A DNA stretch of 64,000 bases from Psychrobacillus sp. INOP01. GTDB lineage: Bacteria; Bacillota; Bacilli; Bacillales_A; Planococcaceae. Shown piece after piece: positions 1 to 4,395 of this stretch (position 1 is its first letter; the number at the start of each line of letters is the position of its first letter). Under the pieces are notes generated by a model. That model was not told the DNA's origin. It saw only the letters and a list, made by a program, of their open reading frames with translations, and searched no databases. Location: the NCBI RefSeq assembly GCF_018140925.1, contig NZ_CP073315.1, forward strand, positions 1,984,001 through 2,048,000, given 5' to 3'. A program made the translations under genes and the position numbers.

Positions 1-104
1 AGTAATATATGTTCTGTCCCTATGGACTCATGCTTTAAGCGAATAGCTTCTTCTTGTGCTAGTTGTAATACTTTTTGAGATCTTTGTGTAAAACGATTAA
101 ACAT
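1..104 (-). CDS. clpC: ClpC ATPase, N-terminal fragment (cut by window edge)
   Basis: Only the first 34-35 codons are in the window. The protein begins [20 protein letters not shown] and continues with a segment ending GTEHILL, which is the start of the ClpC N-terminal repeat domain. ClpC is the AAA+ unfoldase that feeds arginine-phosphorylated and adaptor-delivered proteins to ClpP. The ATG shares bases with the mcsB stop codon (TGATG overlap), so translation is probably coupled. The place as fourth gene after ctsR-mcsA-mcsB is the standard Bacillales arrangement. The ATPase modules lie outside the window. Confidence 0.93.
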
Positions 105-2867: not shown

Positions 2868-3923
2868 TTAAATTTTCTTTTTATAATTATTTCGTTGAGA
2901 TTTCGTAATTTGCTTCCATTTATTCGTTTCAGCTTTTTTAGCTACTGCATCATTTTTTCGATCGATATGTGCAAGTTCTCTCATTAGTTTTACATAGCTT
3001 TTATAGCGTTCTTGTTTAAGCGCACCCGTGTAAATAGCCTCTTGAATAGAACAGCCCGGCTCTTTTACATGCTGACAATCACGAAACCGGCACGCTAATG
3101 CAAGCTCTTCGATATCCTGAAAGCTAGCACTAACTCCATCACTCGTATCCCAAAGTTGAAACTCCCTCATACCAGGTGTATCGATTAATAAGCCACCTTC
3201 CGGTAACAGCGTTAGCTCTCTATGCGTGGTCGTATGACGTCCCTTACTATCATCTTCTCTTATATCATTTACAGTCATTACCTCTACGCCTGACAAGGCG
3301 TTAATCAAAGAAGATTTCCCAACTCCAGAAGATCCTAGAAGTGCGCCCGTTTTATGTGCTGCCAATAGATTTCCTAGACGATTAATACCCTCGCCTGTAA
3401 CACTACTCACTGCAAATATGTCTACACCAAATGCAATAGCTTCCACTTCTTTTATATAATATTCTAGGTCATCACAGGCATCTTTTTTCGTTAACACCAC
3501 AACAGGTGTCGCTCCTGAATCCCATGCAGCCAATAAATATCTCTCTAACCTACGGACATTGAAGTCATGATTGAGCGACATCACTAGAAATACATAATCA
3601 ACGTTAACTGCAATCAGTTGAATCTCCGTCGTCAATCCCGCCATTTTCCTCGAGAACTGAGAGCTGCGAGGAAGCACTTCGTGAATGATTCCTTTTTCCT
3701 CGCCAGGCATTTGTTCAAGAACTACCCAGTCTCCAACTGCCGGAAATGCTTCCCTACCATGATCAAACTTAAATTTCCCAGAAAGTGAGCTTAGTAACTC
3801 CCCTTCGTTGGTCATGACTTTATATAAATTTTTATGTTCCAGTAGCACTCGACCCGCAATTCCATTACCCGCTATTTTTTCTTCCCAATTACTATTCCAA
3901 CCATATTGTTCGATTAAATTCAA
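2868..3923 (-). CDS. rsgA: RsgA-type ribosome-associated GTPase (probable paralogue)
   Basis: RsgA enzymes are circularly permuted GTPases that act in late assembly of the 30S subunit. The order of motifs fits: an N-terminal OB-fold, G4 TKKD at 145-148, then the P-loop GSSGVGKSS at 197-205 and G3 DTPG at 248-251, followed by the zinc site C278-x4-C283-x-H285-x5-C291. The start is a TTG behind a strong AGGAGG. Housekeeping RsgA usually lies near prkC/rpe; this copy stands alone with a GNAT gene, so it may be a second paralogue. Upstream is a leader ORF and terminator suggesting that expression is conditional. Confidence 0.88.
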   Translation of the reverse strand: MNLIEQYGWNSNWEEKIAGNGIAGRVLLEHKNLYKVMTNEGELLSSLSGKFKFDHGREAFPAVGDWVVLEQMPGEEKGIIHEVLPRSSQFSRKMAGLTTEIQLIAVNVDYVFLVMSLNHDFNVRRLERYLLAAWDSGATPVVVLTKKDACDDLEYYIKEVEAIAFGVDIFAVSSVTGEGINRLGNLLAAHKTGALLGSSGVGKSSLINALSGVEVMTVNDIREDDSKGRHTTTHRELTLLPEGGLLIDTPGMREFQLWDTSDGVSASFQDIEELALACRFRDCQHVKEPGCSIQEAIYTGALKQERYKSYVKLMRELAHIDRKNDAVAKKAETNKWKQITKSQRNNYKKKI

Positions 3924-3999
3924 TTTAACTTCCTCCTAATTTCCGTTTGAATAAAAGCACAAGCTGCACATTGATGGCAGCTATTGCTAGACAATAAAA

Positions 4000-4033
4000 A
4001 AACCATGACTGCACGAATCAGCAGTCATGGTTT
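4000..4033 (-). terminator. Attenuator-type terminator upstream of rsgA
   Basis: A perfect 13-bp stem (AAACCATGACTGC with its complement, eight-base loop TGATTCGT) is followed on the minus strand by seven T. It lies after the 21-codon leader ORF and 77 bp before rsgA. The loop plus left arm is nearly complementary to codons 8-15 of the leader ORF (plus-strand 4099-4108 against 4012-4021 is a perfect 10-bp match, with further CT and CATGA matches), so a competing antiterminator can form. Confidence 0.8.
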
Positions 4034-4064
4034 CCCGGCCATTAGTAAAGAAGCATATATCTGG

Positions 4065-4130
4065 TTAGAGACATACAGAGTGGGACATCATGAACTTACT
4101 GATTCGTGGATACGTATATACATTTGCCAT
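4065..4130 (-). CDS. 21-aa leader peptide ORF before rsgA
   Basis: The ORF runs ATG at 4130 to TAA at 4065 and encodes a 21-residue peptide starting MANVYTYPRISK and ending SHSVCL. It has a strong ribosome site, AAAGGAGTGAGG, 7-9 bases before the ATG, and the promoter lies only about 30 bases upstream, so the transcript starts almost at the ribosome site. A terminator follows 31 bases after the stop. This is the layout of a translated attenuator. No membrane segment or known family was recognised. A free-standing toxin or signalling peptide is an alternative, but the base complementarity to the terminator favours a leader. Confidence 0.7.
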   Translation of the reverse strand: MANVYTYPRISKFMMSHSVCL

Positions 4131-4161
4131 AATGCCTCACTCCTTTCTTTAAGTTATTTTC

Positions 4162-4191
4162 AGAATACTACAAGTATTAGCAATCCGTCAA
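4162..4191 (-). promoter_or_regulatory. Promoter of the rsgA leader transcript
   Basis: On the minus strand TTGACG (4191-4186) and TATTCT (4167-4162) are separated by 18 bp. The predicted start is about 25 bases before the leader ORF. Confidence 0.65.
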
Positions 4192-4238
4192 CATATAATT
4201 ATGCAAGTTGCCATTTTGAATGTTGGTACTTTATAATA

Positions 4239-4395
4239 CTGATGATTTTCGTTTCATGCGGACGCTTTACGCGGGCGAGGTCGAGGTCGAGCCTCCTCGG
4301 GACAGTATGATGCTAATTACAAATTGTCTACACACGTTTTGGAATTCTCAGCCTTCGTTTCTATGATTGCTCCCTGCGGGGTCAATAAAGCGAGT
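4239..4395. repeat. Degenerate dispersed intergenic repeat (family A)
   Basis: The first 40 bases match the element at 49403 at about 36 positions (shared core GCGGACGCTTT-CGCGGG). GC content is higher than in the neighbouring intergenic DNA. The right half is decayed: only short pieces such as CTCCCTGCGGGG recall the far end of the 49403 copy. No ORF with a ribosome site is present. The rest of this gap (4396-4504) holds a short inverted repeat, AAGGC/GCCTT, with a T-run on the minus strand that may terminate ykfD. Confidence 0.6.

Follow-up and report, generated by a model that had tools for sequence, protein, structure and literature searches.

Why does a second gene for an RsgA-type GTPase, rsgA2, lie behind a promoter, a short upstream open reading frame (uORF) and an intrinsic terminator, and what would allow RNA polymerase to pass that terminator? 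The gene is part of the window, by which we mean the whole stretch of 64,000 nucleotides analysed here, from a genome of 4.3 Mb. Its product scores 180.7 bits against TIGR00157, above the curated cut-off of 100, and carries the RsgA_GTPase domain PF03193. The solved chains that match RsgA2 best are named RsgA, EngC or YjeQ, and its closest named match comes from Psychrobacillus sp. OK028 (95% identity). The other, canonical rsgA copy of the genome (G000:C1:3565655-3566389) outscores rsgA2 for TIGR00157, and the two proteins are 38% identical over residues 105-323. Canonical rsgA has no such leader in this genome; its start overlaps the end of the preceding gene, leaving no room for one. We take the overlapping gene to be prkC-like and the gene that follows canonical rsgA to be rpe-like. 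On the 3' side of rsgA2 lie genes for a GNAT acetyltransferase, CtsR, a UVR-motif protein and then a kinase, the last two presumably McsA-like and McsB-like.

We read the leader of rsgA2 as a three-state transcription attenuator that senses the position of a ribosome, and put the probability of this reading at roughly 0.7 on the basis of its anatomy, the conservation of its helices and folding energetics. Its features are collected in Table 1. The initial annotation had described a promoter, a 21-codon uORF with a strong Shine-Dalgarno sequence (SD) and a perfect 13-bp terminator in front of an rsgA-like gene, and all of these were found, on the minus strand. The 13 bp form the perfect core (AAACCATGACTGC/GCAGTCATGGTTT) of a terminator with 16 pairs, G-U and U-tract pairs included. 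Taken alone the promoter is a weak match (9/12), the 701 scanned bases holding three promoter-like sites against 2.5 expected; across the 58 loci introduced below, a promoter of the form TTGACN-16..19-TAnnnT stands 31-35 nt 5' of the uORF ATG in 49. The best uORF SD/anti-SD energies in these loci run from -11 to -16.3 kcal/mol. The hairpin over the stop codon has -5.7 kcal/mol in the window, and a hairpin of -3 kcal/mol or lower lies near the stop in 49/58 loci, a count that stands without a shuffled control. The motif TTNTTT occurs in 20 loci, the window among them, and a TTCTT-like sequence in 44. Upstream of the promoter, positions 4234-4260 match G000:C1:3424911 over 27 bases (96%), and similar stretches bearing GCGTCCGC lie upstream in L035 and L036 as well, which suggests a dispersed repeat.

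Table 1. Positions in the window of rsgA2 and the elements of its leader.
Feature	Position	Strand	Remark
rsgA2, second RsgA-type GTPase, 351 aa, TTG start	2868..3923	-	TIGR00157 and PF03193
Shine-Dalgarno AGGAGGA of rsgA2	3931..3937	-	
Intrinsic terminator with U tract	3997..4036	-	arms 4036-4021 / 4012-3997
Segment 3, antiterminator 3' strand	4012..4036	-	equals terminator 5' arm, loop and start of terminator 3' arm
TTCTTT	4047..4052	-	fits the NusG pause motif TTNTTT known from vmlR (PMC9226507, in excerpt)
Hairpin over uORF stop codon	4054..4077	-	candidate RNA polymerase pause hairpin
uORF, ATG, 21 codons	4065..4130	-	peptide MANVYTYPRISKFMMSHSVCL
Segment 2a, 3' arm of SD/AUG hairpin	about 4077..4093	-	uORF codons about 13-18
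Segment 2b, antiterminator 5' strand	4082..4108	-	uORF codons 8-17
Segment 1, 5' arm of SD/AUG-sequestering hairpin (anti-antiterminator)	about 4127..4143	-	
Extended Shine-Dalgarno of uORF	4137..4146	-	AAAGGAGTGA
Promoter TTGACG-18-TATTCT	4162..4191	-	

The antiterminator proposed in the initial annotation, a 10-bp match between uORF and terminator (CACGAATCAG/CTGATTCGTG) with an extension, is present in the window. The duplex of segments 2b and 3 reaches -30.8 kcal/mol, an energy attained by one of 2,000 dinucleotide shuffles of the uORF (mean -16.6). It shares positions 4036-4012 with the terminator and, as had been claimed, the two folds are mutually exclusive. To these we add a third helix, in which the SD and AUG of the uORF (segment 1) pair with its own codons about 13-18 (segment 2a) at -21.5 kcal/mol, reached by 22 of 2,000 shuffles. 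Since this hairpin uses part of the antiterminator strand, it is an anti-antiterminator, and it is predicted to hide the uORF's own start as well. The minimum free energy fold of the leader includes the SD/AUG hairpin and lies below all 200 shuffles (z = -3.82).

A known regulatory RNA was rejected as the identity of the leader: the Rfam scan of the window returned no regulatory RNA, riboswitch or T-box, above gathering score over it, and the sub-threshold match there is OrzO-P (E 0.11, plus strand). Elsewhere in the window there is a SAM riboswitch (RF00162, 87.6 bits, 18667-18564, minus strand). The same search of 18 related loci gave only a T-box (RF00230, 111.7 bits) in L129 (543-745), near an rsgA2-type gene and on the opposite strand to it.

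Relatives were gathered by scanning GTDB genomes with the RsgA2 protein, which yielded 71 loci, 61 from Bacillota and 10 from Verrucomicrobiota (L095-L104), the latter excluded from the uORF analysis. Four Bacillota loci were dropped: L054, whose contig starts 146 bases before the match and in those bases shows no leader; L061, identical to L060 in uORF peptide, terminator and spacing; and L089 and L093 (Alkaliphilus), with 11-codon uORFs. The 57 that remain represent 11 genera by title, leaving aside the doubtful titles Bacillus sp. FJAT-22090 and Arthrobacter and one MAG, and with the window make 58. All 58 have an ATG uORF of 20-27 codons and a terminator before rsgA2, the uORF partly by selection, as the script that picked it preferred 17-28 codons; the uORF feature of L091 and the terminator of L086 were assigned by hand. 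From these loci we aligned 13 Psychrobacillus, 15 Planococcus-group and 10 Sporosarcina/Rummeliibacillus leaders, excluding L068 with its 220-base insert. That locus, titled Arthrobacter beigongshangensis, has a Sporosarcina-type rsgA2 and leader and 62% protein identity to the window's RsgA2, and its organism name is probably wrong or misassigned. In Viridibacillus (L062-L064) the terminator is separated from rsgA2 by insertions that are repeated in part, which puts the uORF stop codon 272, 397 and 523 bases ahead of the gene. The two Alkaliphilus uORFs end in Lys-Ser, and a shared GCACGGTAGGTTATCGTG hairpin and a T run precede the gene.

Within each locus, uORF and terminator pair strongly. 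Cognate uORF:terminator duplexes average -33.2 kcal/mol, against -18.8 kcal/mol with terminators of other clades (58 loci), and in 45/58 loci none of 100 dinucleotide shuffles reaches the cognate energy. Antiterminator cells are paired in 99.3% of cases in Psychrobacillus, 92.1% in the Planococcus group and 91.3% in Sporosarcina/Rummeliibacillus, compared with 26-47% in slid registers. Pairs with changes on both sides number 3, 5 and 5 in the three groups, and 0, 8 and 1 out of 500 shuffles attain these counts. Further pair types are likewise seldom matched by shuffles in Psychrobacillus (0/500) and Sporosarcina/Rummeliibacillus (7/500); in the Planococcus group they are no better than shuffles (334/500). 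One example is Psychrobacillus locus L038. Its uORF strand reads CACGAATCTG instead of the window's CACGAATCAG, and its terminator strand CAGATTCGTG instead of CTGATTCGTG; Ser11 becomes Cys, and the pair is kept by a matching change in the terminator loop. As judged from these alignments, covariation support for the antiterminator is good.

The SD/AUG hairpin is backed mainly by conservation, its compensatory support in the alignments being weaker than that of the antiterminator. Its duplexes have -21.8 kcal/mol with the locus's own uORF versus -14.9 kcal/mol across clades (58 loci), and its energy is reached by 0/100 shuffles in 27/58 loci (45/58 for the antiterminator). Its cells are paired in 97.2% (Psychrobacillus), 91.7% (Planococcus group) and 85.7% (Sporosarcina/Rummeliibacillus) of cases, with slid registers at 39-64%. 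Pairs changed on both sides number only 1, 2 and 3, and out of 500 shuffles 407, 395 and 64 do equally well. Counted as cells, two-sided changes are exceptional only in the Planococcus (10 cells, 0/500) and Sporosarcina/Rummeliibacillus (5 cells, 5/500) groups, and the Psychrobacillus hairpin has no excess of them over shuffles.

The uORF itself is kept as a frame. In the Planococcus and Sporosarcina groups the stretch from the AUG to the antiterminator strand varies in length by multiples of three, which speaks for translation of the uORF; the Planococcus group also has a 4-base length difference near the stop codon. The peptides of the main clades share almost no residues (MANVYTYPRISK..., MAILFLNTQFQS..., MKKTTTYTNLFV..., MAKVEIAMKQSG...).

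We searched 41 genomes with R1, a covariance model trained solely on the 15 Planococcus-group leaders, using stricter filters at which weak matches may be lost. It finds the leader in 18 of 19 Psychrobacillus genomes, at one place in each (two overlapping matches in two genomes), always directly upstream of rsgA2 and nowhere else in those genomes; the match to the window leader has E = 9.5e-16. The remaining Psychrobacillus genome has neither the leader nor an rsgA2-type match at 1e-60. Outside the genus, R1 matches next to rsgA2 in the related genome G024 (E = 3.2e-46) and partially in G019 (E = 0.006). It has no match in the other 20 genomes, 9 of them with rsgA2-type matches, and the model thus reaches close relatives only. 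According to the initial annotation, the attenuator would be undermined if relatives lacked the ORF and the alternative helix. Both are kept, with compensatory changes, and R1 finds the leader in 18/18 Psychrobacillus genomes that have the gene.

To see which ribosome positions would free the antiterminator, each of the 58 leaders was folded at equilibrium with a ribosome footprint of -15 to +16 masked at successive codons. With no ribosome, terminator probability exceeds 0.5 in 56/58 loci (median 0.95) and the SD hairpin has a median of 0.75. A P site placed at codon 1 or 2 lowers the terminator median to 0.18 or 0.25 and raises the antiterminator to 0.63 or 0.60; at codon 3 the terminator is back at 0.81, and from codon 4 onward at 0.94-0.95. 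The window itself follows this course, with terminator probabilities of 0.95 (no ribosome), 0.17 (codon 1), 0.31 (codon 2) and 0.94 (codon 3), and the trend is unchanged with two other footprint widths, making three mask widths in all. Antiterminator probability exceeds 0.4 in 35/58 loci at codon 1 and 32/58 at codon 2, the window included. Despite the ribosome, the terminator stays above 0.5 in 23/58 loci at codon 1 and 26/58 at codon 2; those retaining it at codon 1 include 4 of 13 Psychrobacillus (L034, L035, L038, L044), 3 Viridibacillus and 5 of 6 Bhargavaea. With the ribosome anywhere from codon 5 to codon 20, between 52 and 58 of the 58 loci have the terminator above 0.5.

These predictions agree with the earlier proposal that a ribosome held in the first codons would favour antitermination and free translation termination. 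The attenuator reading is supported; its two-state logic is what has to be amended. Two exclusive folds would imply read-through when the uORF is not translated, whereas the hairpin added here sequesters the uORF SD and AUG, and absence of translation is therefore also predicted to give termination. According to the model, the sensor should be the initiation region of the uORF, which would respond to ribosomes held at the start and not to absent translation or to a particular peptide.

Folding of growing transcripts qualifies this picture. In seven examples a ribosome at codons 1-2 prolongs the antiterminator relative to the ribosome-free transcript. In L038, L062 and L078 the antiterminator is lost again at full length, and in L092 codon 6 is a further ribosome position that maintains it. 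In the growing window transcript without a ribosome, the antiterminator forms first (0.80 at the first length) and is then lost, so that kinetics may allow some read-through without translation. In these models the three-state claim is most vulnerable at this transient ribosome-free antiterminator.

The mechanism we propose would work as follows. Segment 2, in the second half of the uORF, would pair either with segment 1 (1:2, the anti-antiterminator) or with segment 3 (2:3, the antiterminator); otherwise segments 3 and 4 would form the terminator (3:4). Without a ribosome, 1:2 and 3:4 would form and transcription would end before rsgA2. A ribosome running through the uORF would cover segment 2, again giving the 3:4 terminator. 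Only a ribosome held on the start codon, or somewhere in the opening two or three codons, would cover segment 1 and leave segment 2 free, allowing 2:3 to form and rsgA2 to be made. The strong uORF SD would load ribosomes, and the stop-codon hairpin and TTCTTT probably pause RNA polymerase, giving the ribosome time to be in place. The switch would read ribosome position, the peptide being of little consequence. Translation of the uORF, pausing of the polymerase and the signal are parts of this scheme that we infer.

As for the signal, the analogy with vmlR set out below and what RsgA binds point to compounds that stop the ribosome during initiation or while the earliest peptide bonds are made (the lincosamides and pleuromutilins of the vmlR system); these would be the likeliest trigger, at slightly less than even odds. 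A rather unlikely alternative is that the switch senses 30S subunits that bind and then fail to proceed. RsgA binds the A site of the 30S subunit and the subunit interface and can dissociate 70S ribosomes, according to the excerpted parts of PMC6912228. In our scheme RsgA2 would clear or re-mature the affected 30S subunits.

Other explanations of the leader can be weighed on the same evidence. Feedback from 30S quality, in which immature or damaged 30S subunits on the strong SD would hold the start region and a shortage of RsgA would thereby raise rsgA2, fits the trigger position, which in the masked folding is the initiation site, the strength of the uORF SD and the role of RsgA as a late 30S assembly factor (PMC6912228, in excerpt); we consider it unlikely, canonical rsgA being without such a leader. 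Lower still we place arrest by a specific peptide, in which the leader peptide, acting jointly with a tunnel-bound drug or metabolite, would stall the ribosome at a defined codon, as in ErmC or hflXr. The uORF is intact at 20-27 codons in the 58 loci and its first residues often read M-A-[I/N]-hydrophobic, and the 14-residue hflXr leader, as excerpted, carries RLR (PMC6310831). Against such arrest, the main-clade peptides have almost nothing in common, and the residues conserved in Psychrobacillus fall mostly in the RNA-paired half, where the Ser11 to Cys change of L038 is matched in the terminator loop. We reject Arg-Leu-Arg arrest of the hflXr type in particular, as the motif is not in the window peptide and occurs in 5/58 peptides, all from Bhargavaea. 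An amino-acid attenuator of the trp/his type, responding to ribosomes stalled by aminoacyl-tRNA starvation, would have the same layout of leader ORF, antiterminator and terminator, and is very improbable: by inspection the peptides have no run of one amino acid common to the clades, the target is not a biosynthetic gene, and the terminator is kept with ribosomes at codons 5 to 20. Intergenic intrinsic terminators are common, yet a constitutive terminator beside a chance ORF, unregulated or ending an upstream transcript, is scarcely credible given exclusive helices conserved with compensatory changes, the kept promoter spacing, in-frame indels and co-occurrence with rsgA2.

The three-state reading has partial counterparts among known systems. 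Translation attenuators of the ermC type work by a four-segment logic of 1:2 and 3:4 versus 2:3. Several distant rsgA2 loci without a terminator look, by eye, like SD-sequestering versions of that logic; in the window, unlike in ermC-type systems, the output is termination of transcription and no peptide-specific arrest is evident.

The nearest described mechanism, as far as the excerpted account goes, is that of the vmlR leader of Bacillus subtilis (PMC9226507). There an anti-antiterminator around a uORF, a pause hairpin, TTNTTT and a terminator precede the gene, which is induced by lincomycin and retapamulin, agents that arrest initiating ribosomes, and inefficiently by erythromycin and linezolid. 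The rsgA2 leader is alike in having an anti-antiterminator that includes the uORF, a candidate pause hairpin, TTNTTT (in the window) and an intrinsic terminator, and in its predicted antitermination by an initiation-arrested ribosome, which here rests on energetics and conservation. Variants of the vmlR uORF from other species are described as still working (PMC9226507), and the rsgA2 uORF peptides diverge. The two differ in that vmlR, in the same excerpts, has a three-codon uORF, an SD that is single-stranded before the hairpin and an ABC-F target, while the rsgA2 leader has a uORF of 20-27 codons carrying the strand common to both helices, an SD inside the hairpin and an RsgA GTPase as target.

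The nearest described target, on similarly partial sources, is hflXr. Like hflXr/rli80 of Listeria and the uORFC-6-1 motif of hflX (PMC6310831, PMC8632094), rsgA2 encodes a presumably uORF-controlled homologue of a ribosome-associated GTPase, and the published hflXr leader combines terminator, antiterminator and anti-antiterminator (PMC6310831). Its GTPase family is a different one, and the RLR arrest motif of those leaders is missing from the window peptide. The genes listed as WblC-activated in the tetracycline response of Streptomyces include an RsgA paralogue; judging by the naming order in the pair SCO6149/SCO5211, it is SCO6149 (PMC7157823, in excerpt). The WblC/WhiB7 response thus resembles the present case in that an RsgA paralogue is among the activated genes with paralogues, and wblC itself is described there as uORF-controlled; it differs in that control is exerted in trans by a transcription factor, with no cis leader described on the gene.

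Full-text literature searches, with most subscription papers outside their reach, found no leader-controlled RsgA. The main texts of PMC2965389, PMC11109978, PMC6429828 and PMC10219788, on bacterial attenuators, motifs and uORFs, do not mention RsgA, and papers that contain both RsgA and leader peptide have the latter in their reference lists only.

How widely is such a leader distributed? Matches of rsgA2 type (E <= 1e-85) occur in 183/398 genomes of the class and 61/145 genera. Sixty upstream regions were analysed, of which 55 belong to copies passing this threshold, in 54 of the 183 genomes, and 5 to third copies. A uORF of 8-30 codons with a strong SD is present in 54/60, compared with 4/60 on reverse strands and 6-15/60 in five shuffles; for L116 and L117 the ORFs entering this count are chance ones, their uORFs having been set by hand in the pairing and SD-accessibility analyses. 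At a stricter SD energy (-12) the numbers are 42/60 versus 0 (reverse strand) and 0-2 (shuffles). Other genes in the same loci have a strong-SD uORF in 8/62 cases, one of the eight being the rsgA2 of L085, in stretches often shorter than the test regions. Under a slightly different rule 53/60 regions, representing 25 of 30 sampled families, have a uORF; a terminator separates it from the gene in 28 and is missing in 25.

Several leaders without a terminator (L116, L119, L129 and others) carry GGAATCCTCC at the uORF end and GGAGGAATCC or GGGGGAATCC as the rsgA2 SD, and by eye look like SD sequestration. In the 25 terminator-less leaders, segment pairs fall in the top 5% in 4 cases for 2:3, 3 for 3:4 and 8 for 1:2. 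An equilibrium model of rsgA2 SD accessibility in 53 distant loci gives no effect of ribosome position (median 0.25-0.29 throughout). Distant antiterminators show weak cross-family specificity: beyond the family's first copies, the cognate pair beats all non-cognate pairs in 3/18 and is in the top 5% in 5/18. The third RsgA-type copies of Psychrobacillus (L159-L163) have other short uORFs and terminators upstream: four uORFs of 10-11 codons (MANSTYMVIWS, MATTYMVVWS, MTAYMVLVVLT, MTTYMVLVVLT) and one of 20. None of the four short uORFs shows an evident antiterminator pairing.

Taken with its leader, RsgA2 may be an unrecognised antibiotic-inducible ribosome-rescue GTPase of Bacilli, a 30S-side counterpart of HflXr and VmlR, held off by uORF sensors of initiation-arrested ribosomes. 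The sensor logic would be kept across the class, the output (terminator or SD sequestration) and the peptide being swapped, and initiation complexes arrested by a drug would be split or stripped by RsgA2, which would return their 30S subunits to the pool. We offer this broader idea tentatively, as possible though doubtful. A paralogue of a 30S-assembly GTPase under a cis sensor of stuck initiating ribosomes, kept with unrelated peptides, points to a role in stress beyond housekeeping assembly. The model predicts that rsgA2 would stay silent until ribosomes arrest at start codons, and the leader would offer a natural sensor of inhibitors that act at the initiation stage.
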